From: Streptomyces sp. PCS3-D2
GTDB taxonomy: Bacteria; Actinomycetota; Actinomycetes; Streptomycetales; Streptomycetaceae
Assembly: GCF_000612545.2 (NCBI RefSeq)
Contig: NZ_CP097800.1
Location: 5,344,501 to 5,408,500 of the forward strand
Direction of reading: 5' to 3'
DNA length: 64,000 bases
A program made the translations under genes and the position numbers. Positions 38,246-48,660 of the stretch are shown here, in pieces. Each line of letters begins with the position of its first letter. The stretch's first letter is position 1. The notes under the pieces are model-generated. The model had not been told where the DNA came from, did not search any database, and worked only from the letters and a program-made list of their open reading frames with translations.

Positions 38246-39112
38246 TCACCCTCGGTGGTCCGACGCGTACCGCTCCGCGGCAGCCGTACGGCCGTCACCG
38301 TCCCCGGAACCGAAGGAGACGGGTGCATCGAACGCCGCCCTGCGCGTCGCCCGCCGCAAGGCCCTCAGCAGCGTGCCGCCGAGCGTGAGCGTCAGGACGA
38401 CCGTCAGCGCCGCCCGGCCCAGGTCCCAGCCCAGCGACGTCGCCAGGCAGTAGGCGAGGAAGCGCACGAGGTTCGCGGCCACCGGATCCCCCGGATGGAA
38501 GGAGACGCCCTGCCCCATGCCCTGGAGGATCACCCACCCCTGCAGGTTCATGATCGTGCCGTACCCGAAGGCACCCGCGAAGCCGTACGCGGCCAGCATC
38601 AGCAGCTCCGCCCGGCCCCGGATCCGCTCCGGGCCCGGCAGCAGCCCCGCGCCCAGCGCGAACCAGCCCATCGCCAGCATCTGGAACGGCATCCACGGCC
38701 CGACGCCGCCCGTCAGCAGGGCGGAGGCGAACATCGTCACCGAGCCCAGTACGAACCCGAAGCCCGGACCGAGGACCCGGCCGGCCAGCACCAGCAGGAA
38801 GAACATCGGCTCCAGGCCGGCCGTGCCCGCCCCCAACGGCCTCAGCGCCGCCCCGACGGCCGCGAGCACGCCGAGCATCGCCACCGCCTTCGCGTCCATG
38901 CCGTTGTCCGCGATCGTCGCCACGACGACGGCGACGAGGAGGGGCAGCAGCGCCGCGAAGAGCCACGGCGCGTCCTGGGAGTGCGCGAGCCCCGACTGCC
39001 GGTCCGCCAGGAGCGGCCAGCCGAAGGCCGCGATGCCGATGAGACTGACCAGCACCAGGGCGGCGGCGGCCCGGGGACCGATCCGCACCGGCCGGCTGAC
39101 CGGGCGGGTCAT
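38246..39112 (-). CDS. ECF transporter substrate-binding (S) component
   Basis: A 288-residue membrane protein with about six hydrophobic helices (RAAAALVLVSLIGIAAFGW, FALGAGLLPGPERI, MLAAYGFAGAFGYG). It is the last gene of a five-gene operon and its ATG overlaps the TGA of the ATPase gene. S components bind the vitamin; the cobalamin riboswitch at the operon head points to B12 or a corrinoid precursor. Confidence 0.85.
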   Translation of the reverse strand: MTRPVSRPVRIGPRAAAALVLVSLIGIAAFGWPLLADRQSGLAHSQDAPWLFAALLPLLVAVVVATIADNGMDAKAVAMLGVLAAVGAALRPLGAGTAGLEPMFFLLVLAGRVLGPGFGFVLGSVTMFASALLTGGVGPWMPFQMLAMGWFALGAGLLPGPERIRGRAELLMLAAYGFAGAFGYGTIMNLQGWVILQGMGQGVSFHPGDPVAANLVRFLAYCLATSLGWDLGRAALTVVLTLTLGGTLLRALRRATRRAAFDAPVSFGSGDGDGRTAAAERYASDHRG

Positions 39113-40959
39113 CGGGTCGCCGCCGTGTCGAGGGCCTCGGCGACCTGGCCGACGGTGAGCCAGTGGCCCGGCGCCAGCACCTTCGCCACCTGCGGCGCGA
39201 AAGCCGGGGAGGACACCACGACCTCCGCGGTCGGCCCGTCCGCCACGACCTCTCCGCCCGCCAGGATCACCACGCGGTCGGCCAGCTCGGCCGCCAGCTC
39301 CACGTCGTGGGTGGCCAGGACGACGGCGTGCCCGTCGGCGGTCAGAGCTCGCAGGATCTCGATCAGGCGGGCCTTGGCGGCGTAGTCCAGACCCCGGGTG
39401 GGCTCGTCGAGCAGCAGCAGGGCGGGCCGGCCCGTCAGCACCAGGGCCAGAGCCAGGACCAGGCGCTGGCCTTCGGAGAGGTCCCGGGGGTGGGTGTCGT
39501 CGGGGACGCCGGGCAGCAGCTCCGAGACGAGGTCGCGGCAGGTGCCGGGGGGCACGGCGGCGTCGGAGTCGGCGGCGGCGCACTCGGCGGCGACCGTGTC
39601 GGCGTAGAGCAGGTCGCGGGGCTCCTGCGGGACCAGGCCGACACGGCGCACCATCTCGGGCGGAGGAGTGCGGTGCGGGGCCCGGCCGCCGACGGTCACC
39701 GCGCCGGTGGTGGGGGTGAGCGTACCGACGAGCGTCGACAGCAGGGTGGACTTGCCGGCGCCGTTGCGGCCCATCACGGCGATGGTCTCGCCGGGAGCCA
39801 CCGTGAGGTCGATGCCGCGCAGCACCTCGGTGCGGTCACGGCGCAGGCCGAGGTTCCGCACCCGAGCGGTGTCGCTTGCGGCGGGCTCGGCACCTTCGGC
39901 ACCCTCGGCGCGCACGGTGGTGTCCGGCTTGCCGCCGCCCCGGCGCAGTATGCGGGCGAGCAGGCCGGGTGAGGCCCCGCCCCCGATGGGGGCTGCGCCC
40001 CCGGCCGCCCCCGCCCCGGACACCGCCCCGGACACCGGCGAGGTCGCGGGCGAGGCCGCGACACCAGGCCCCGGAGGCGTGCGGTGCGCCGGTCCGGGCA
40101 GAGCCCTGGACACGGCGCCGCGGGTGGCCCCGGGGGCAGGAGTCGACGCCAGACGGCTACGCAGCGGCGCGGCCCGGCGGCGGGCGTCGCGGACCGAGAG
40201 GGGGAGCGGGGACCAGCCCGCGACACGGCCCAGGGAGACCACCGGCGGGCAGACGGGGGAGACGGCCATCACCTCCGCCGGGGAGCCCAGGACCGGCGCC
40301 GCGCCGCGGGCCGGCAGCAGCAGGACGCGGTCGGCGTACTGCACCACCCGCTCCAGCCGGTGCTCCGCCATCAGCACGGTCGTGCCCAGGTCGTGGACCA
40401 GCCGCTGGAGGACCGCCAGGACCTCCTCGGCCGCCGCCGGGTCCAGCGCGGACGTCGGCTCGTCCAGCACCAGCACCTTCGGGTGCGTCGTCAGCACCGA
40501 GCCGATCGCCACCCGCTGCTGCTGGCCGCCGGACAGCGTCGCGATCGGCCTGTCCCGCAGCTCGTTCAGGCCCAGGAGGTCCAGGGTCTCCTCCACCCGG
40601 CGGCGCATCACCGCGGGCGGCAGGCCCAGGGACTCCATCCCGTAGGCCAGCTCGTCCTCCACCACGTCCGTCACGAAGTGCGCCCGCGGGTCCTGGCCCA
40701 CCGTGCCCACCACGTCCGCGAGCTCCCGCGGCCGGTGCGTGCGCGTGTCACGGCCCGCGACCGTGACCCGGCCGCGCAGGGTGCCGCCCGTGAAGTGCGG
40801 GACCAGCCCGCTCACCGCCCCCAGCAGCGTGGACTTGCCGACCCCGGACGGGCCGACCAGCAGCGTCAGCTCGCCCTCCGGGATTTCCAGGTCCACGCCC
40901 CGCAGCGAAGGGGCGGAGGCGCCGTCGTAGACGACCGACACCTGCTCGAAGCGGATCAC
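39109..40959 (-). CDS. Double ATP-binding subunit of the ECF transporter (EcfA-EcfA fusion)
   Basis: A 616-residue protein containing two ABC ATPase domains. First: Walker A GPSGVGKSTLL, signature LSGGQQQRV, Walker B VLVLDEPTSALD. Second: Walker A GRNGAGKSTLL, degenerate signature LSEGQRL, Walker B LLLDEPTRGLD. A Pro/Ala-rich linker of about 120 residues joins them. GTG 40959 overlaps the TGA of ecfT. It powers the vitamin importer. Confidence 0.92.
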   Translation of the reverse strand: MIRFEQVSVVYDGASAPSLRGVDLEIPEGELTLLVGPSGVGKSTLLGAVSGLVPHFTGGTLRGRVTVAGRDTRTHRPRELADVVGTVGQDPRAHFVTDVVEDELAYGMESLGLPPAVMRRRVEETLDLLGLNELRDRPIATLSGGQQQRVAIGSVLTTHPKVLVLDEPTSALDPAAAEEVLAVLQRLVHDLGTTVLMAEHRLERVVQYADRVLLLPARGAAPVLGSPAEVMAVSPVCPPVVSLGRVAGWSPLPLSVRDARRRAAPLRSRLASTPAPGATRGAVSRALPGPAHRTPPGPGVAASPATSPVSGAVSGAGAAGGAAPIGGGASPGLLARILRRGGGKPDTTVRAEGAEGAEPAASDTARVRNLGLRRDRTEVLRGIDLTVAPGETIAVMGRNGAGKSTLLSTLVGTLTPTTGAVTVGGRAPHRTPPPEMVRRVGLVPQEPRDLLYADTVAAECAAADSDAAVPPGTCRDLVSELLPGVPDDTHPRDLSEGQRLVLALALVLTGRPALLLLDEPTRGLDYAAKARLIEILRALTADGHAVVLATHDVELAAELADRVVILAGGEVVADGPTAEVVVSSPAFAPQVAKVLAPGHWLTVGQVAEALDTAATR

Positions 40960-42233
40960 TGCGACGCCTCCTTCGGCGGTACGGGTGCCACGAGGGCGGG
41001 CAGCAGGCCGATCAGGACCGCGGCCGCCGGCCACAACGGAAGCGAGGGAGCCTCCAGCGGGACCACCCCCGGGTGCATACCGGTCGGATCGACACCGCCG
41101 GCATGGATGAGCAGACCCGCGACGGCCGCCCCGGAACCGGCGACCAGCCAGGCGCGCGCCCCCCACCGGTCCGGCCGGTAACGGGTGCGGACCGACCGGC
41201 GCCCGCCGAGCCGCAGCCCCGCCAGCGCCAGGACCACCCCGATGCCGAGCACGGGCAGCCCGTACGCGGCGCCCTGCGCGGCCAGCAGACCGTACGTGCC
41301 CGCGCACATGCCGAGCAGCCCGCCGAGGGTGAGGACGGTGGTCGTGTGCCGGACGGCCGGCGGGACCCGGGCCGTACGGCCGTAGCCTCGGGCGTCCATC
41401 GACGCGGCGACCGCGACCGAGCGTTCCAGGGCGCCCTCCAGCACCGGCAGGCCGATCTGCAGGACGGCCCCGATCCCGCCGGTGGGACGCCCGCGCAGCC
41501 TGCGAGCGGTGCGCAGGCGCACGACGTCGGCGACCATGTTCGGCGCGAAGGTCAGGGCGACGACGACGGCGACCCCCGCCTCGTACAGGGCGGCCGGCAG
41601 CGACTTCAGCAGCCGGGCCGGATGGGCGAGGGCGTTCGCCGCACCCACGCAGACCAGGAGCGCGGCCAGCTTCGCACCGTCGTAGAACGCGAAGACGACC
41701 TGCTCGGCGGTGACCCTGCCGCCGAACCGGATGCCCTGCGCCCACGCGGGCAGCGGCACCTCGGGGAGGACGAAGAGGGTGTGCGTGCCGGGGATGGGCG
41801 AACCCAGCAGCATCGAGAAGAGCAGGCGCAGGCCGATGACGACCAGGCCGAGCTTGAGGAACGCCCCGTAGGAGCGGGCCCAGGGAGCATCGGTGCGGCG
41901 GGCCGCGACCACGAATCCGGCGACGCCGACGATCAGCCCCAGCAGGAGCGGATTGGTCGTGCGGGACGCCGCGGTGGCCAGACCCAGGGCCCACAGCCAC
42001 CAGGCCCCCGCGTGCAGGGCGGTGGCCCGGCCGTCACGCGGGGGCCCGAACCGCTCGTATGCCGACCTGCGCGGGGAACGCGCCGCCCCGGGCGCGCTCC
42101 GGCGGGCCGGGGGCACGTCGCCGGGCGCGGCTCCGGTGTGTGCCCCGGCCGGGGCTCCCGCGCGTCCTCCGGCGGATGCTCCGGCCGGGCTTGCGGCGGG
42201 GCCACCGGCCGGGCGCGGGACGGAAGGGGTCAT
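40956..42233 (-). CDS. ecfT: ECF transporter transmembrane (T) component, CbiQ-like
   Basis: A 425-residue integral membrane protein with the EcfT coupling motif ASMDARGYGR in its C-terminal half (second Ala-Arg-Gly box, with RRLRGRP earlier). The first ~60 residues are a Pro/Ala-rich extension. The ATG at 42233 overlaps the upstream TGA (ATGA), which decides it over a GTG eight codons earlier. Confidence 0.88.
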   Translation of the reverse strand: MTPSVPRPAGGPAASPAGASAGGRAGAPAGAHTGAAPGDVPPARRSAPGAARSPRRSAYERFGPPRDGRATALHAGAWWLWALGLATAASRTTNPLLLGLIVGVAGFVVAARRTDAPWARSYGAFLKLGLVVIGLRLLFSMLLGSPIPGTHTLFVLPEVPLPAWAQGIRFGGRVTAEQVVFAFYDGAKLAALLVCVGAANALAHPARLLKSLPAALYEAGVAVVVALTFAPNMVADVVRLRTARRLRGRPTGGIGAVLQIGLPVLEGALERSVAVAASMDARGYGRTARVPPAVRHTTTVLTLGGLLGMCAGTYGLLAAQGAAYGLPVLGIGVVLALAGLRLGGRRSVRTRYRPDRWGARAWLVAGSGAAVAGLLIHAGGVDPTGMHPGVVPLEAPSLPLWPAAAVLIGLLPALVAPVPPKEASQ

Positions 42234-42883
42234 CGGCCCCGGCGGCGGGACTGCCACACGCCCGCGGCGGCCAGGGCTGCGACCGCGGCGATGCCCGCCA
42301 ACAGACCGGCGGACGGGCCGCCGCCCGGGGCGGACCCGGACGGCTCCGCGGAGGCCCGGGCCGCGCCCGTCTCGGCGATCTGCTCCCCGCAGCCGTGCTG
42401 CGGGTAGCCCGAGATCGCGCAGAGCAGCGCCGCACTGTTGTAGCGCAGCGGCTTCGCGACCGCCGCCAGCGCCTCGGCCGTCGTCGCCTCCGGCGCCACC
42501 TGCGCGCAGGCCGTGCGCGGGGCCTCCTGCGGTACGACCTCACCTGTGGGGGCGTCCGCCTGCACGCCGAAGTCGATGACGAGGGCCACCCGCTTGCGGC
42601 CCTCCGCCGGGGCGGTCGTCCCGCACACGGCCTCGAAGTCGGCCGCGGCCCGCGGCGTGGCCGCCTCCGCCGCCGCGTCCCTGCTGACCGCGAAGCGGAA
42701 ACCCTGGACGGAACCGTCCGCGGGCCGGGCCAGCGACGGCCCCTGCGCGGCGTACGACCACTGGCCGCCCGCGCCGTCCCAGAACGACCAGTAGCGGTAG
42801 CCGGCGGCCAGCGCCGGAGCGGCGGCCAGCAGGGCCAGGACGACGCCGAGGGTGAACGCCGCGGCGGGCAGGCGGCGGCGCAT
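42230..42883 (-). CDS. Secreted, membrane-anchored SCO2322-family-type protein
   Basis: A 217-residue protein: signal peptide (LGVVLALLAAAPALAAGY), extracellular beta-rich domain (YWSFWDGAGGQWSYAAQGP, then RVALVIDFGVQADAP), and a C-terminal TM helix ending QSRRRGR. Four Cys may form disulfides. Encoded between the toroid protein and EcfT under the B12 riboswitch, so it is a probable surface accessory of corrinoid uptake. Family name from memory; function unknown. Confidence 0.75.
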   Translation of the reverse strand: MRRRLPAAAFTLGVVLALLAAAPALAAGYRYWSFWDGAGGQWSYAAQGPSLARPADGSVQGFRFAVSRDAAAEAATPRAAADFEAVCGTTAPAEGRKRVALVIDFGVQADAPTGEVVPQEAPRTACAQVAPEATTAEALAAVAKPLRYNSAALLCAISGYPQHGCGEQIAETGAARASAEPSGSAPGGGPSAGLLAGIAAVAALAAAGVWQSRRRGR

Positions 42884-44157
42884 CAGAGCTGGTTCTTCCT
42901 GCGACGGCCGCTCAGCAGGATGCCGATGCCCATACCGGCAGCCGCGCCCGCACCGATGATCCACCAGATGTTCTGGCCGCCGGACGGCTTCTCCTTCTCG
43001 CCCTTCACCTCGCTCGCGCCGGTGTCCGCGCCCTGCGGGGCCGGGCCGGTGGCGTTCAGCGCGGCCACGAGGTCGGTGCCGCCGAAGGACTTCGGGTCGG
43101 TGCCGGTGGCGTGCGCAGCCAGGACCAGGGTGCCCAGGGCCGCCGGGGAGCCCTCGGCCCACGTGGCGGAGTTGGTCTTCAGCCACTGCAGCGCGCCCGC
43201 CGCCGACTGCTTGTGCCCGGCCGCGGCCAGCGCGATCACCGCGTCGGCGGTGTTGCCGGGGTCCGGGGTCGGCTGGTCCGCCCCGGGGGTGAGGGCGGTC
43301 AGGTGGCCGTCCTTCCCGAGGGCCTCGGCCAGGTAGCCCGCGGCGCCCTGGGCGGCCGCCTCGGCGTCGGCGGCCGGGTCCGCGGCCGGCGCCGCCGGAC
43401 AGGTCAGCGGCGTCGCGGGGGTGTCCGTACCGGACGGGACGACGGCCGCGCCCTTGCCGAGGCCGGCCAGCGCCGCGGCGGCCGTGGCGTCGGCGTTGGC
43501 GACCAGCTTGCCCTCGACCGGCTGGAACGCGAAGGCGCCCCGGTCGGCGGCCGGCTCGGTGGCGCAGCCCAGCTGGAAGGAGAGCAGCGCCTCGTAGGGG
43601 GACTTGCCCGCCTTCGACTTCGTTTCGGCCGGCTTCTCGCCCGCCGCGGCCAGGGCGCTGATGACGAGGGCGGTCGAGTTGGCGTCGGTGCCGGTGTCCA
43701 TGGCGCCGCCGGGGTTGGAGCTCCAGCCACCGTCCTCGTTCTGTACGGACTTCAGCCAGCCGATCGCCTTCTTGACGCTGTCGTCGCGGCCGCCGAGTGC
43801 GGTCAGCGCCTGTACGGCCGCGGCCGTCGCGTTGGAGTCGATGTACGCGGTCGCGTCGCAGTCCTTGGTGGTGTCCGCACGGAAGGCGGCGAAGGAGCCG
43901 TTCGCGCACTGCTGCCCGACCAGCCAGTCCACGGCCTGCTCGGCGGGCTTGACGCCGACGGTGTCCTGGGCGAGCAGCGCGAAGGACTGGCGCCACACGC
44001 CGTCGAAGGAGGGGTCCTTCTTGCCGTAGAGGCCGGAGGGGATGACGGGGGGCGCGGAGGGGGACGGCGGCGCGGTGTCGGCGAGGGCCGCGGGGGCGAC
44101 GCCCACGCAGAGCACGGCGGAGGCGGCGAGCGCGGCGGCGCTGCGGCGGACGGTCAT
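42883..44157 (-). CDS. Secreted alpha/alpha-toroid (prenyltransferase/squalene-oxidase repeat) protein
   Basis: A 424-residue protein with a signal peptide (SAVLCVGVAPAALADT), several toroid repeats (AVDWLVGQQCANGSFAAF, AIGWLKSVQNEDGGWSS, AAQGAAGYLAEAL), and a C-terminal TM anchor with an RRRKNQL tail. The same barrel is the B12-binding alpha domain of intrinsic factor and transcobalamin. First gene behind the cobalamin riboswitch; ATG 44157. Confidence 0.85.
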   Translation of the reverse strand: MTVRRSAAALAASAVLCVGVAPAALADTAPPSPSAPPVIPSGLYGKKDPSFDGVWRQSFALLAQDTVGVKPAEQAVDWLVGQQCANGSFAAFRADTTKDCDATAYIDSNATAAAVQALTALGGRDDSVKKAIGWLKSVQNEDGGWSSNPGGAMDTGTDANSTALVISALAAAGEKPAETKSKAGKSPYEALLSFQLGCATEPAADRGAFAFQPVEGKLVANADATAAAALAGLGKGAAVVPSGTDTPATPLTCPAAPAADPAADAEAAAQGAAGYLAEALGKDGHLTALTPGADQPTPDPGNTADAVIALAAAGHKQSAAGALQWLKTNSATWAEGSPAALGTLVLAAHATGTDPKSFGGTDLVAALNATGPAPQGADTGASEVKGEKEKPSGGQNIWWIIGAGAAAGMGIGILLSGRRRKNQL

Positions 44158-44269
44158 GGGGGAGGGTGCCTCTCCTGCTGGGGAACCGGGGCAGGCACGC
44201 ACGGGCACCGGGCTCCGGCTCCGTTTTCCTCGACGGTGCCGGCCGCCGGGAGGACCGGCGGCGCGAGCC

Positions 44270-44400
44270 GCGCACTCGGCGTACGGGGCATTCCGGCTTC
44301 CCGCCCGGGGTGGTGCCGGGGGCGGGTCACGGTTGCGGGTCAGCGTCGGAATCGCACCGGCTTCCCCCCGTACGGGTGTGGACGACCGCCTCACTCTACC
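44270..44400 (-). ncRNA. Cobalamin (B12) riboswitch
   Basis: On the minus strand the conserved core reads GGGAAGCCGGTGCGATTCCG, then CGCTGACCCGCAACCGT, and after a stem GGCGGGAAGCCGGAATGCC. These are the classic B12-riboswitch blocks. It lies about 110 bp before the toroid gene, in the 365-bp gap 44158-44522, and should repress the whole ECF operon when B12 is plentiful. Confidence 0.9.
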
Positions 44401-44522
44401 GGCCCGTAGCCCCCGGGCCCGGGGTGGCCGGTGCCGCCGAGTGCGGGGCCCTTGCCTGCAGCCCCGTGAGGGGCCGGCGTCCGGCCCCGTCCGCGGCCCC
44501 GTGTCCGGTCCTGCGCCCGCCG

Positions 44523-45572
44523 TCACAGCGCCCGGTACGCCACCGGGTCGGTGCCCGGGACCGCCTCGGCGCGGCCCTGCTTGACCAGGCGCCGCAGATG
44601 CGCCTCCGCTTCCGAGACGGCGATGTTGCGGGAGCCGTACGGGATCTGTTCCCAGGGCCGGTTCCACTCCATCCGTTCGGCCAGCGCCCACGGGGTCAGC
44701 GGTTCGGCGAGCAGCGCCCGCAGCCCTGCCAGGCGCTCCTCGTGGTGGTGCAGGAGCTCGCGCACGCGGCTGGGAGCGTCGGTGAAGGCGTGCTGGTGGG
44801 CGGGCAGCACCTCGGCGGGCTCCAGCCGGCCGATGCGTTCGAGGGAGTCGAGGTAGTCGCCGAGGGGGTCGGTGACGCGGGTGTCGTCGGGGGCCTCGTA
44901 GAGGCCGACGTGCGGGGAGATGCCGGGCAGCAGGTGGTCGCCGGAGAAGAGGCGGCCGTTGCCGGGGAGTCCCGCCGGGTGCCGTTCCTCCAGGTGCAGG
45001 CAGACGTGGCCGGGGGTGTGGCCGGGTGTCCAGACGGCGCGCAGCCGGCGTCCGGCGAGGGGGAGCAGTTCGGCCGGGACGATCTCCCGGTCGGGGACGG
45101 CGGCGCGCAGCCCGGGCAGGGTTCGCATGCGGCCGCTCGCGCGGGCGGCGCGCAGCGGGGCGATGTGCTCCTCGGGCGCTCCGGCGGCGGCCAGCTTCGC
45201 GCTCAGGTAGTCGCACCACACGCCGGGCTCGGCGGAGCGGGTGCGCAGGACGACCTCGGTGTCGGCGGCGTGCATGGCGATCCACGCGCCGGCCGCCTCG
45301 CGGACCCGGCCGGACAGTCCGTGGTGGTCGGGGTGGTGGTGGGTGATGACCACGCCGTGGACGTCGGCGACCGCGATGTCCAGGGCGGCGAGGCCGGCGA
45401 CGAGCGCGTCCCAGGACTCGGGGTCGTCCCAGCCGGTGTCGACGAGGACCGGGCCGCGGTCGGTGTCGAGGACGTGGACGAGGGTGTGCCCGAGAGGGTT
45501 GTCGGGAATGGGCACCTTGATCCCCCACACGCCTCCGCCGTGATCGGTGACCTGTGACGTGTCCTGAGACAT
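44523..45572 (-). CDS. MBL-fold metallohydrolase
   Basis: A 349-residue protein with the zinc-binding motif THHHPDHHG, a second-metal His in TPGHTPGHVCLHL, and SGDHLLP. A C-terminal winged-helix segment (ALAERMEWNRPWEQIPYGSRNIAVSEAEAHLRRLVKQG) follows, as in the LACTB2/BLACT_WH-type hydrolases. ATG 45572 after GGAGG. A KstR-like box 31 bp upstream suggests a steroid-pathway hydrolase, possibly a CoA thioesterase or lactonase. Confidence 0.88.
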   Translation of the reverse strand: MSQDTSQVTDHGGGVWGIKVPIPDNPLGHTLVHVLDTDRGPVLVDTGWDDPESWDALVAGLAALDIAVADVHGVVITHHHPDHHGLSGRVREAAGAWIAMHAADTEVVLRTRSAEPGVWCDYLSAKLAAAGAPEEHIAPLRAARASGRMRTLPGLRAAVPDREIVPAELLPLAGRRLRAVWTPGHTPGHVCLHLEERHPAGLPGNGRLFSGDHLLPGISPHVGLYEAPDDTRVTDPLGDYLDSLERIGRLEPAEVLPAHQHAFTDAPSRVRELLHHHEERLAGLRALLAEPLTPWALAERMEWNRPWEQIPYGSRNIAVSEAEAHLRRLVKQGRAEAVPGTDPVAYRAL

Positions 45573-45602
45573 GATCCCTCCGGCTGTCGGCCGTCCTCGG
45601 GC

Positions 45603-45616
45603 GAGAACGTGTTCCA
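45603..45616. promoter_or_regulatory. KstR-like box upstream of the MBL-fold gene
   Basis: GAGAACGTGTTCCA, one mismatch to TNNAACNNGTTNNA (first base). 31 bp before the MBL start. Confidence 0.65.
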
Positions 45617-45701
45617 TTAGTAGCCCAAGTCGACCATCTGGACGGCTTTCTGGCTAGTCGTTTGATCTTCTCCCCGCTTCCGTCCCGGCCGTGGACTCCT
45701 G

Positions 45702-45723
45702 GAACTAGAACTGGTATCAGTTC
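45702..45723. promoter_or_regulatory. KstR-like operator upstream of the aldehyde dehydrogenase
   Basis: Contains TAGAACTGGTATCA at 45706-45719 (one mismatch, GTA for GTT) within GAACTAGAAC ... AGTTC. It aligns along 22 bp with the operator before fadA5 at 36101-36122, differing at about five positions. It ends 31 bp before the ALDH start. Confidence 0.65.
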
Positions 45724-45753
45724 GGAAACGCCAAGCCGCAGGAGGCCTCAGCC

Positions 45754-47217
45754 ATGACGGAGCTCGTGGAACACGGACAACTGTTCATCGGCGGCGAGTG
45801 GGTCGATCCGCTGGGCACCGACACCATCCGGATCGTCTCCCCGCACACCGAGCAGGTCATCGGCTCCGTTCCGCACGCGTCCGAGGCCGATGTCGACCGG
45901 GCCGTCGCCGTCGCGCGCAAGGCCTTCGACGAAGGCCCCTGGCCGCGGATGACGTTGGAGGAGCGGATCGCGGTCGTCTCCCGCATCAAGGACGCCATCG
46001 CCGTCCGCCACGAGGAGATAGCCCGCTCGATCAGCTCCCAGAACGGCTCCCCCTACTCCTGGAGCGTCCTCGCCCAGGCGCTCGGCCCGATGATGGTCTA
46101 CGACGCCGCGATCACCGTCGCGCGCGCCTACCCCTACGAGGAGTACCGCCAGGGCGTGCTCGGCCCGATCCTGGTGCGCCGCGAACCCGTGGGCGTCGTC
46201 GCCGCCGTCATCCCCTGGAACGTCCCGCAGTTCGTAGCGGCCGCCAAGCTGGCTCCCGCGCTGCTGTCCGGCTCCACCGTGATCCTCAAGCCCTCCCCGG
46301 AGGCGCCGCTGGACTCCTACATCCTCGCCGACATCGCGCGCGAGGCCGGAGTGCCCGAGGGCGTGCTGTCGATCCTGCCCGCCGACCGCGAGGTCGGCGA
46401 GTACCTCGTCGGCCACCCCGGCATCGACAAGGTGGCCTTCACCGGCTCCGTCGCCGCCGGCCAGCGAGTGATGGAGGTCGCCGCGCGCAACCTCACTCGG
46501 GTGACCCTCGAACTCGGCGGCAAGTCCGCCGCCGTCGTCCTCCCCGACGCCGACGTGGCGACCGCCGTCGCCCAGATCGCCCCCGCCGCCTGGATGAACA
46601 ACGGCCAGGCCTGCGTGGCCCAGACCCGGATCCTCGCCCCGCGCAGCCGCTACCAGGAGGTGGCCGAGGGCCTCGCGGCGGCGGCCGGCGCGCTCGTCGT
46701 CGGCGACCCGCTCGACCCGGCGACGCAGCTCGGCCCGCTCGTCGCGCAGCGTCAGCAGCAGCGCTCCTTCGACTACATCCGGATCGGCCAGGAAGAGGGC
46801 GCGAAGGTGCTGGCGGGCGGCGGACGTCCGGCCGGCCTCGACCGGGGCTGGTACGTGGAGCCCACGCTCTTCGGCGACGTCGACAACTCCATGCGGATCG
46901 CCCGTGAGGAGATCTTCGGCCCCGTCGTCTGCCTGATCCCCTACGGGGACGAGGAGGAGGCCGTACGCGTCGCCAACGACTCGGAGTTCGGCCTCAGCGG
47001 CAGCGTCTGGACCGGCGACGTCGAGCACGGCATCGACTTCGCCCGGCGGATCCGCACCGGTACCTTCAACGTGAACACCTTCAGCCTGGACATGCTGGGG
47101 CCGTTCGGCGGCTACAAGAACAGTGGCCTCGGGCGGGAGTTCGGCCCCGAGGGCCTGGGCGAGTACCTGGAGCACAAGATGATCCACCTGCCCGCCGGCC
47201 ACGAGGCGGGTGCCTGA
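45754..47217 (+). CDS. Aldehyde dehydrogenase (steroid-regulon type)
   Basis: A 487-residue NAD(P)-dependent ALDH. Active site: Asn156 (PWNVP), Glu253 (LELGGKS), Cys287 (NNGQACVAQ). It ends next to and overlapping a ferredoxin gene. Its KstR-like operator and neighbours suggest oxidation of the side-chain aldehyde made by CYP125, comparable to the KstR-controlled Rv0223c of M. tuberculosis. Confidence 0.92.
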   Translation: MTELVEHGQLFIGGEWVDPLGTDTIRIVSPHTEQVIGSVPHASEADVDRAVAVARKAFDEGPWPRMTLEERIAVVSRIKDAIAVRHEEIARSISSQNGSPYSWSVLAQALGPMMVYDAAITVARAYPYEEYRQGVLGPILVRREPVGVVAAVIPWNVPQFVAAAKLAPALLSGSTVILKPSPEAPLDSYILADIAREAGVPEGVLSILPADREVGEYLVGHPGIDKVAFTGSVAAGQRVMEVAARNLTRVTLELGGKSAAVVLPDADVATAVAQIAPAAWMNNGQACVAQTRILAPRSRYQEVAEGLAAAAGALVVGDPLDPATQLGPLVAQRQQQRSFDYIRIGQEEGAKVLAGGGRPAGLDRGWYVEPTLFGDVDNSMRIAREEIFGPVVCLIPYGDEEEAVRVANDSEFGLSGSVWTGDVEHGIDFARRIRTGTFNVNTFSLDMLGPFGGYKNSGLGREFGPEGLGEYLEHKMIHLPAGHEAGA

Positions 47218-47450
47218 TGGCAGACCGCTGGCAGGTCGAAGTGGACCGGGGGGTCTGCATCGGTTCGGGCATGTGCGTGAACCACGCCCCGGAGGGCTTC
47301 GTCCTGGACTCGGCGCGCCAGTCCCACCCCCGCAACCCGCGGTCGGACGCGAGCGAACCGGTCCTCGCGGCGGCCGAGGGCTGCCCGGTGGAAGCCATCA
47401 TGATCACCGTGGCCGCCACCGGCGAACCGGTCTTCCCACCGGAGGAGTAG
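47217..47450 (+). CDS. P450-type 3Fe-4S ferredoxin
   Basis: A 77-residue ferredoxin with cluster ligands C14, C20 (CIGSGMC) and C56 (CP); Gly17 replaces the fourth ligand, giving a 3Fe-4S cluster. The ATG shares a base with the ALDH stop codon. It is the likely electron donor to CYP125, about 11 kb away. Confidence 0.92.
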   Translation: MADRWQVEVDRGVCIGSGMCVNHAPEGFVLDSARQSHPRNPRSDASEPVLAAAEGCPVEAIMITVAATGEPVFPPEE

Positions 47451-47461
47451 ACGGCGGGGAA

Positions 47462-47502
47462 GCGGTGGTGGGGCGGGGCCGGCGACCCCGCCCCACCACC
47501 GC
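47462..47502. terminator. Bidirectional terminator
   Basis: Perfect 17-bp stem (arms 47462-47478 and 47486-47502) between the convergent ferredoxin and VOC genes. Confidence 0.85.
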
Positions 47503-47507
47503 ACGGA

Positions 47508-47879
47508 TCACTTCCGCTCGGCTGCGCTCCGCTCGACGCAGAACTCGTTGCCCTCCGGGTCGGCCAGGGTCACCCATCCGGTGCCATCGGGCCTGCGGTG
47601 GTCGCCGACGACGGTGGCGCCGAGGGCGAGGATGCGCTCCACCTCCTCGTCGCGGGTGCGGTCCTGTGGCTGAAGGTCCACGTGGACGCGGTTCTTGACG
47701 CTCTTGGTGTCGGGAACGGTCACGAAGAGCAACGCCGATCCGGGTGCCGTGACCAGTGCCTCGGGATCCCCGGGAACGTCGTCGTCGCCGAGTGAGCCGT
47801 CCAGCACGGCGGCCCAGAAACGGCCCAGTGCGTAGGCGTCGGAGCAGTCAACAGTGATGTGTCGCACGAGAGAAGCCAT
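47508..47879 (-). CDS. VOC/glyoxalase-like protein
   Basis: A 123-residue VOC-fold protein starting MASLVRHITVDCSDAYALGRFW, with RVHVDLQPQD and LADPEGNEFCVE typical of the Glyoxalase-like group. Start ATG 47879; the upstream extension is Arg/Pro-rich noise. Function unknown; not obviously part of the steroid set. Confidence 0.85.
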   Translation of the reverse strand: MASLVRHITVDCSDAYALGRFWAAVLDGSLGDDDVPGDPEALVTAPGSALLFVTVPDTKSVKNRVHVDLQPQDRTRDEEVERILALGATVVGDHRRPDGTGWVTLADPEGNEFCVERSAAERK

Positions 47880-48036
47880 GGGGCGCACTATCGGACGCGG
47901 CGGTGACCCCCGTCCAGCGGGTTTGGCGCGGGCGGACCGGTCGGGCCCGGGGCGGCTCCGGCGGCAGACATCCCCGCGAGCCGCCCCCGCCCCGACCACG
48001 GCCCCGCCCTGCTCCTCGAAGCCTCCGGCAATCGGT

Positions 48037-48660
48037 TCAGGACTTTTCCGGCGCCGTCAGGTCGATCAGGCGGCAGACCGTTTCGATGTCGATCTTGACC
48101 TGGGCGATCGAGGCGCGGCCCGACAGCCACGTGATCAGCGCCGAGTGCCAGGTGTGCTCGATGACCCGGACCGCCGACAGCTGTTCCGCCGTCGGTGGGT
48201 TTTCCAGGCCCATCGCGTCCAGGATGATCGCCGTGGTCAGGCGGGACACGGTGTCGACCTCGGGGCTCACGCTGCGGTCCGCGAAGGTCAGCGCGCGCAC
48301 CATCGCGTCGGCCAGCTGCGGTTCCCGCTGGAGGGCGCGGAAGGCGCGCATCAGGGTCTCCGCGACCCGGGCCGCCGGCTCGTCCTCGGCGGGTGGGCGC
48401 TTGCGCAGCGTGGTGTGCATGTGCTGGAGCTGGTCCTGCATGGTGGCGACCAGCAGGTGCACCTTGGACGGGAAGTACCGGTAGAGGGTGCCCAGGGCCA
48501 CCCCGGCGGCCTCGGCGACCTCGCGCATCTGGACGGCGTCGAAGCCGCCCCGGCTGGCCAGCTGGGCGCTCGCGTGCAGGATCCGGCGGCGGCGCGCCTC
48601 CTGGCGCTCCGTCAGGGGAGGCGATGCCGGTGTGGTGACGGCCTTCACTTCCGCACTCAT
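48037..48660 (-). CDS. kstR: TetR-family regulator KstR
   Basis: A 207-residue TetR protein. The recognition region GGFDAVQMREVAEAAGVALGTLYRYFPSKVHLL is almost that of mycobacterial KstR, and the ligand domain keeps the AMVRALTFAD ... HTWHSALITWLSGRAS pattern. KstR represses cholesterol catabolism and is released by a steroid-CoA ester. Several matching operators lie in this window, which supports the call. Confidence 0.9.
   Translation of the reverse strand: MSAEVKAVTTPASPPLTERQEARRRRILHASAQLASRGGFDAVQMREVAEAAGVALGTLYRYFPSKVHLLVATMQDQLQHMHTTLRKRPPAEDEPAARVAETLMRAFRALQREPQLADAMVRALTFADRSVSPEVDTVSRLTTAIILDAMGLENPPTAEQLSAVRVIEHTWHSALITWLSGRASIAQVKIDIETVCRLIDLTAPEKS

Follow-up and report, generated by a model that had tools for sequence, protein, structure and literature searches.

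A predicted corrinoid acquisition operon of Streptomyces with a circularly permuted, transcobalamin-like candidate capture protein

Introduction

What do two secreted, membrane-anchored proteins do when their genes lie between a cobalamin riboswitch and the genes of an energy-coupling factor (ECF) importer? The question is raised by a locus of Streptomyces sp. PCS3-D2, within a stretch of 64,000 nucleotides (contig NZ_CP097800.1, positions 5,344,501 to 5,408,500; hereafter the window, whose own numbering is used below). Here, five genes follow each other on the minus strand, which encode, in this order, a toroid protein, a small beta-rich protein (the beta protein), EcfT, a fused EcfA-EcfA ATPase, and the S component, with a cobalamin riboswitch in front. 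An earlier note on this DNA had proposed that the two surface proteins form a split B12 receptor, convergent with or homologous to transcobalamin, which feeds the importer. Our analysis makes it probable that this is a corrinoid (B12) acquisition operon, which combines an ECF importer with a transcobalamin-like capture pair that is split over two genes and permuted in its beta domain. Between the two origins that the note had allowed, homology is favoured for the small protein: profile comparisons suggest a homologue rather than an analogue of the C-terminal beta-grasp domain of transcobalamin. The swap of its two halves had not been foreseen.

Results

Operon structure and riboswitch

The host genome of the operon measures 7.6 Mb, and the nearest named relatives at the locus are Streptomyces. 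The toroid protein (424 aa; gene at 42883..44157, on the minus strand like all features given below) matches the NCBIfam model SCO2321_fam with 551.9 bits (cut-off 300), and the beta protein (217 aa; 42230..42883) matches SCO2322_fam with 212.7 bits (cut-off 85). Both are thus members of families whose names carry no function and whose descriptions contain neither the kinship nor the permutation proposed here. Each protein has a signal-peptide-like start and, at its end, a hydrophobic helix with a basic tail, as read from the sequence (42886..42975 in the toroid gene); the anchor region of the beta protein (42233..42322) also matches the GPS-CTERM model with 31.5 bits (cut-off 28). These features uphold the earlier claim of two secreted, anchored surface proteins. 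The genes for EcfT (CbiQ-like; 40956..42233), the fused EcfA-EcfA ATPase (39109..40959), and the S component (38246..39112) follow, and with the starts chosen here neighbouring genes overlap by 1 or 4 bases. The complete ECF set that had been described is therefore present in one overlapping unit, which runs on to 38246, beyond the extent given before (42230..44400). Regulation, secretion, and importer type are predicted from sequence.

A threshold scan of the 64-kb window with Rfam reported no riboswitch, and RF00174 applied to the leader gave a match at 44316-44416 with 29.1 bits (E 2.6e-5), which does not reach the gathering score of 31.5. We built our own covariance model, R1, from 37 leaders, namely that of the window and those of 36 named Streptomyces. 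R1 places the aptamer at 44291..44386 with 88.2 bits and also matches all 80 named Streptomyces loci, 44 of which are outside the model; a crude leader pattern had caught only 53 of these 80 leaders. The Rfam score is below the threshold, yet the cobalamin riboswitch that had been postulated in front of the operon is supported, because R1 matches the window and every named locus. In a wider set of 84 operon loci, R1 was run on 69 and matched 60 of them, together with four of six control riboswitches from the host genome (E<=0.01). Independently of R1, Rfam models detect a cobalamin-class riboswitch that exceeds the gathering score directly in front of the operon in 5/11 loci with the canonical and 7/11 loci with the permuted form of the beta domain (defined below). 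Covariation is modest: four of 20 pairs changed on both sides, one of them in 18/37 leaders. One otherwise invariant helix, unbroken in all 36 further leaders of the alignment, contains a C-A mismatch in the leader of the window; this may explain the low Rfam score. Just 5' of the aptamer, by eye, lies TAGAGT (44393..44398), a possible -10 promoter element; a TANAGT-like sequence stands at the corresponding position in almost every one of 53 leaders inspected, with TAGGGT in one locus (L189).

The host genome contains six further RF00174 matches, five over the cut-off and one below. According to hidden Markov model (HMM) searches on fragments, they precede metE, cobN, nrdA, the gene of an ABC binding protein closest to the F420-0/BtuF type, cbiB, and cbtA.

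A circularly permuted beta domain

Among 394 genomes sampled from the class, the SCO2322 model exceeds its cut-off in 135 and reaches E<=0.001 in 162. In a sample of the phylum, 44 of 296 genomes match at E<=0.001 and just 10 of them exceed the cut-off; many of the remaining matches are half-length, and two are in swapped order. At the loci of half-length matches, a domain of the opposite half order, which we call canonical, takes the operon position of the beta gene.

Profile alignment of the two forms pairs permuted columns 2-61 with canonical columns 100-159 (E 1.3e-15) and permuted columns 66-132 with canonical columns 27-89 (E 2.4e-8). With more rows, the score was 100.9 over 56 columns unrotated and 170.6 over 119-122 columns rotated. 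A scan of 35 cut points round the permuted alignment gave the best result at columns 56-64, whereas in the control, canonical against canonical, rotation always lowered the score (eight cut points). The canonical HMM used for the rotation tests and for the survey of loci was built without permuted sequences. Taken alone, the window protein matched twice and out of order, with 41.4 and 25.5 bits (jointly 62.3), and, once rotated, in a single alignment with 76.0 bits. Four cysteines are kept in 42-44 of the 44 permuted rows; their canonical counterparts, mapped by eye, are conserved in 43-47 of 48 rows for three of them and in 21/48 for the fourth.

Judged by these alignments, the beta protein is a circularly permuted domain with swapped halves, cut just before the YWSYW strand. 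Half B, the C-terminal half of the canonical form (YRYWSFW...GFRFAVS; 42683..42799), comes first; it is followed by a linker with a PR..F..VC motif (42599..42682; delimited by eye in the alignments), which connects the old C-terminus to the old N-terminus, and by half A, the canonical N-terminal half (RKRVALVIDFG...GCGEQ; 42383..42598).

In a quick tree of 71 S components, the labels permuted and canonical change at least five times, but well-supported branches force just one of these changes, so that the tree favours neither a single nor a repeated origin of the permutation. Two genomes of the genus of the window, G171 (loci L042 and L057) and G504 (L168 and L169), each carry one permuted and one canonical beta locus.

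Kinship with the transcobalamin beta-grasp domain

The literature is cited here from portions of the articles, to which our statements refer. DUF4430 (PF14478), the transcobalamin-type SLBB domain, is named in PMC4350170 as the C-terminal domain of TCN proteins, and a DUF4430 profile finds Transcobalamin-1 in the Protein Data Bank (PDB) with E 3.8e-4. When the canonical actinobacterial domain was compared with DUF4430, the two aligned collinearly with a probability of 93.5 (95.6 in a repeat) and a score of 43.9, against a mean of 11.1 and a maximum of 19.4 for 200 column shuffles and 8.2 for the reversed profile. The DUF4430 alignment was drawn from 30 loci, of which four at contig ends (L063, L065, L069, and L087) were excluded. 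The permuted family scored 30.8 over 58 columns unrotated and 40.5 over 93 columns, with a probability of 91, after rotation. The halves of the window protein do not have the normal DUF4430 order. On profile grounds, therefore, it is homologous to the DUF4430 domain as a permuted derivative and not as an ordinary member.

Two loci encode, beside the toroid and canonical beta genes, a further, third secreted protein in which Pfam recognises a DUF4430 domain: L101 (4004-4549) and L057 (12870-13634).

The toroid and its partners across loci

The window toroid matches SQHop_cyclase_C with 38.5 bits (cut-off 26.1), and 51/61 toroids match this model, so that the family looks terpene-cyclase-like. 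The stretch taken for alignments was 43003..44076 in the window, and among the best 60 of 70 PDB chains found with the toroid profile are terpene cyclases and complement C3/C4.

We surveyed 85 loci, a subset of the matches for which a wide region was taken: 44 permuted ones, including the window, and 41 canonical ones, all chosen by the beta domain rather than by ECF genes. A complete T-A-S set shares the strand of the beta gene at 70/85 loci and was not found within the stretch examined in the other 15. Within that stretch, no toroid was found in 26/85 loci; three of these are at contig ends, which leaves 23 of 82 evaluable loci. A lax search of 25 of the 26 (all except L093) yielded no more than a toroid fragment where the contig of L140 ends. 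In 17 of the 23 toroid-free loci, the beta domain is preceded by a riboswitch at a distance of 167-335 bases (R1 was run on 21 of the 23). In three genomes, by contrast, toroid and beta domain are fused: the single chains of L048, L051, and L104 contain a toroid with one or two beta domains, as well as three CWB2 cell-wall repeats, and a profile of these fusions finds S-layer/cell-wall-binding and cyclase chains in the PDB.

The proposal that toroid and beta protein form a receptor pair thus gains from the fusions and is weakened by the toroid-free loci, since the two genes need not occur together. With no toroid detected next to the beta gene at more than a quarter of the evaluable loci, the beta protein is the steadier partner and may be the essential subunit. 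We rate it as not quite an even prospect that it is the essential extracellular subunit for corrinoid binding and delivery, with the toroid as an accessory and the two-domain sandwich as a special case. The riboswitches placed directly before solo beta domains agree with this, as do solo beta-type domains reported from fishes (PMC1796856). It is opposed by the three fusions and by the named Streptomyces, in which a toroid lies just upstream of the beta gene at 80/80 loci (the best 80 of 552 relatives). Furthermore, selection of the loci by their beta domain would have missed operons with a toroid only, and toroids elsewhere in the toroid-free genomes were not sought.

Several loci vary this architecture. 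L048 (3897-6779) joins a toroid to a tandem pair of canonical beta domains and to three CWB2 repeats in one chain, with another toroid gene upstream; such tandem beta domains are a plausible intermediate toward circular permutation. L055 (2673-14399) has one ECF set but two genes each for the toroid and the canonical beta protein, and four RF00174 riboswitches exceed the gathering score there within 16 kb. L145, L158, and L166 have a riboswitch, a toroid, and a permuted beta gene, and no ECF gene was found in the stretch examined. The genome of L147 measures about 1.4 Mb, and the locus combines an AdoCbl riboswitch with a permuted beta gene and ECF genes; the likeness to acI actinobacteria is one of size only.

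The ECF transporter and its ligand

A T subunit, two ATPase domains, and an S component are encoded together in the operon, as is expected of an ECF transporter. The ATPases are clear (ABC_tran, 189.7 bits); EcfT and the S component score below their Pfam cut-offs (CbiQ, 18.5 bits against 25; ECF_trnsprt, 26.9 against 30.7). Among 30 S component homologues, 26 match PF12822 and 12 also match PF07155, a riboflavin-type S family (both at E<=0.01), and Pfam scans gave no match to CbiM-type metal families. CbrT was considered as an identity for the S component and not found: a profile of the 30 S components gave one chance chain in the PDB (E 6.8).

These results bear on what is imported. Instead of cobalamin, the importer might carry a different compound that is related to cobalt or regulated by cobalamin (cobinamide, a corrinoid other than cobalamin, cobalt itself, or a nucleotide precursor); the riboswitch would then just signal the cobalamin state. 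Cobalamin riboswitches of the host also control nrdA and cbtA, the PF07155 matches would suit such a ligand, and precursors or other metabolites are allowed for by Burroughs et al (2007; PMC1796856). We nevertheless regard this as unlikely: the S component matches no CbiM-type metal family, a beta protein akin to that of transcobalamin suggests a corrinoid ligand, and acI actinobacteria, reported as B12 auxotrophs that lack B12 synthesis, have an ECF module behind cobalamin riboswitches (PMC5301498).

Upstream of the operon (44523-48660), we noted by eye genes for an MBL-fold hydrolase, an aldehyde dehydrogenase with a small ferredoxin-like gene, and a TetR-type regulator. Genes resembling these neighbours adjoin the operon in some loci of the same genus.

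Discussion

Corrinoid acquisition, which we consider the probable role of the operon, would proceed as follows. At low cellular cobalamin, the leader would be freed and the operon expressed. The toroid and the beta protein would reside on the outer face of the membrane, held by their C-terminal helices, and close on a corrinoid from two sides, like the two domains of transcobalamin. The clamped corrinoid would then be handed to the ECF S component; in toroid-free loci, the beta protein would work by itself or jointly with the S component. For the ligand, the clamping, and the hand-over, this is what we infer from the operon as a whole.

A number of results speak against this reading. Besides the sub-threshold Rfam score of the leader, the 15 loci without a complete ECF set, the 23 without a toroid, and the failure to find CbrT with the S component profile, they concern the need for uptake and the kinship itself. 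The host riboswitches also control B12 synthesis genes, and therefore the organism may have no need of uptake. PF01122, the eukaryotic cobalamin-binding family, matches two of 61 toroids at E<=0.01 (best 3.6e-4) and leaves the window toroid unmatched, and the best 60 of 70 PDB chains for the toroid profile include no transcobalamin; PDB sequence searches with the window toroid and beta proteins gave none either. The Pfam model of DUF4430 matches one of 48 canonical relatives (E 0.018) and fails to match the window beta protein at E<=1 or E<=10. A first, untrimmed comparison of the canonical profile with DUF4430 gave a probability of 57%. In the PDB, the canonical beta profile retrieves no transcobalamin at E<=10, and Transcobalamin-2 reaches only E 0.24 with the DUF4430 profile.

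If the likeness to transcobalamin were spurious, the beta protein would be an unrelated secreted beta-rich domain, and its swapped order would reflect two separate small motifs. Consistent with this, the window protein has no direct match: no Pfam family is found at E<=1 (two chance matches below the cut-offs appear at E<=10), the PDB gave no match to it, nor a transcobalamin with the canonical profile, and the link to transcobalamin passes through DUF4430. The shuffle, reversal, and rotation controls, the natural toroid-beta fusions, and the riboswitch and ECF context argue to the contrary, as does L101, where a DUF4430 protein (24.0 bits, cut-off 23.8) adjoins toroid, canonical beta, and ECF genes. 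We therefore hold a spurious likeness to be very improbable.

B12 capture by a bacterial toroid and an SLBB domain is already known as a prediction. Burroughs et al (2007; PMC1796856), who describe B12 as clamped between the two domains of transcobalamin, reported toroid-SLBB surface proteins in CbiO/CbiQ operons and predicted them to be scavengers of B12 or its precursors; the portion cited lists this clade for low-GC Gram-positives, planctomycetes, and euryarchaea, and not for actinobacteria. The window shares with these proteins a secreted beta-grasp domain and a toroid adjoining CbiO/CbiQ-like genes, but differs in its separate anchored proteins and its permuted beta domain, where the SLBB proteins have the normal order. 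The animal proteins transcobalamin, intrinsic factor, and haptocorrin likewise combine a toroid with a homologous beta domain, and their one-chain toroid-beta order recurs in L048, L051, and L104. In the window, the two parts are encoded by two genes rather than in the single chain of the transcobalamin and intrinsic factor family, the beta domain is rotated, membrane anchors are added, the toroid is unmatched by PF01122, and B12 binding is putative. ECF-CbrT of Lactobacillus delbrueckii (PMC5997447) is, like the predicted importer of the window, composed of EcfT, two ATPase domains, and an S component; it operates without surface proteins, according to the portion cited, and the S component of the window has no detectable match to the solved CbrT. 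Permutation is mentioned in the cited text of PMC1949818 for the E1/UFD branch only. In the portions of open-licence literature that were covered, SCO2321 turns up in the context of a transdermal peptide and nothing is found on SCO2322-SCO2325. Within that literature, three features appear to be new: the permuted order, the division into two anchored subunits, and the occurrence in actinobacteria.

A further reading, which we put forward tentatively and think more doubtful than probable, is that of an actinobacterial ECF importer with a dedicated extracellular capture subunit, in which the permuted beta-grasp domain would bind the corrinoid and dock on the S component, and the toroid would be an optional second jaw. 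If so, this would be a binding-protein-assisted ECF transporter, with a B12-clamping domain of the transcobalamin superfamily that evolution rotated while its job was kept. That one ligand-binding domain occurs fused, split, alone, and rotated at a constant place in the operon amounts to a natural experiment in protein evolution. If the operon does serve corrinoid acquisition by a transcobalamin-like pair, two families so far named after Streptomyces coelicolor genes would receive a function, the B12 carriers of animals would have split, permuted relatives in bacteria, and Gram-positive B12 capture ahead of import would become testable in laboratory Streptomyces.

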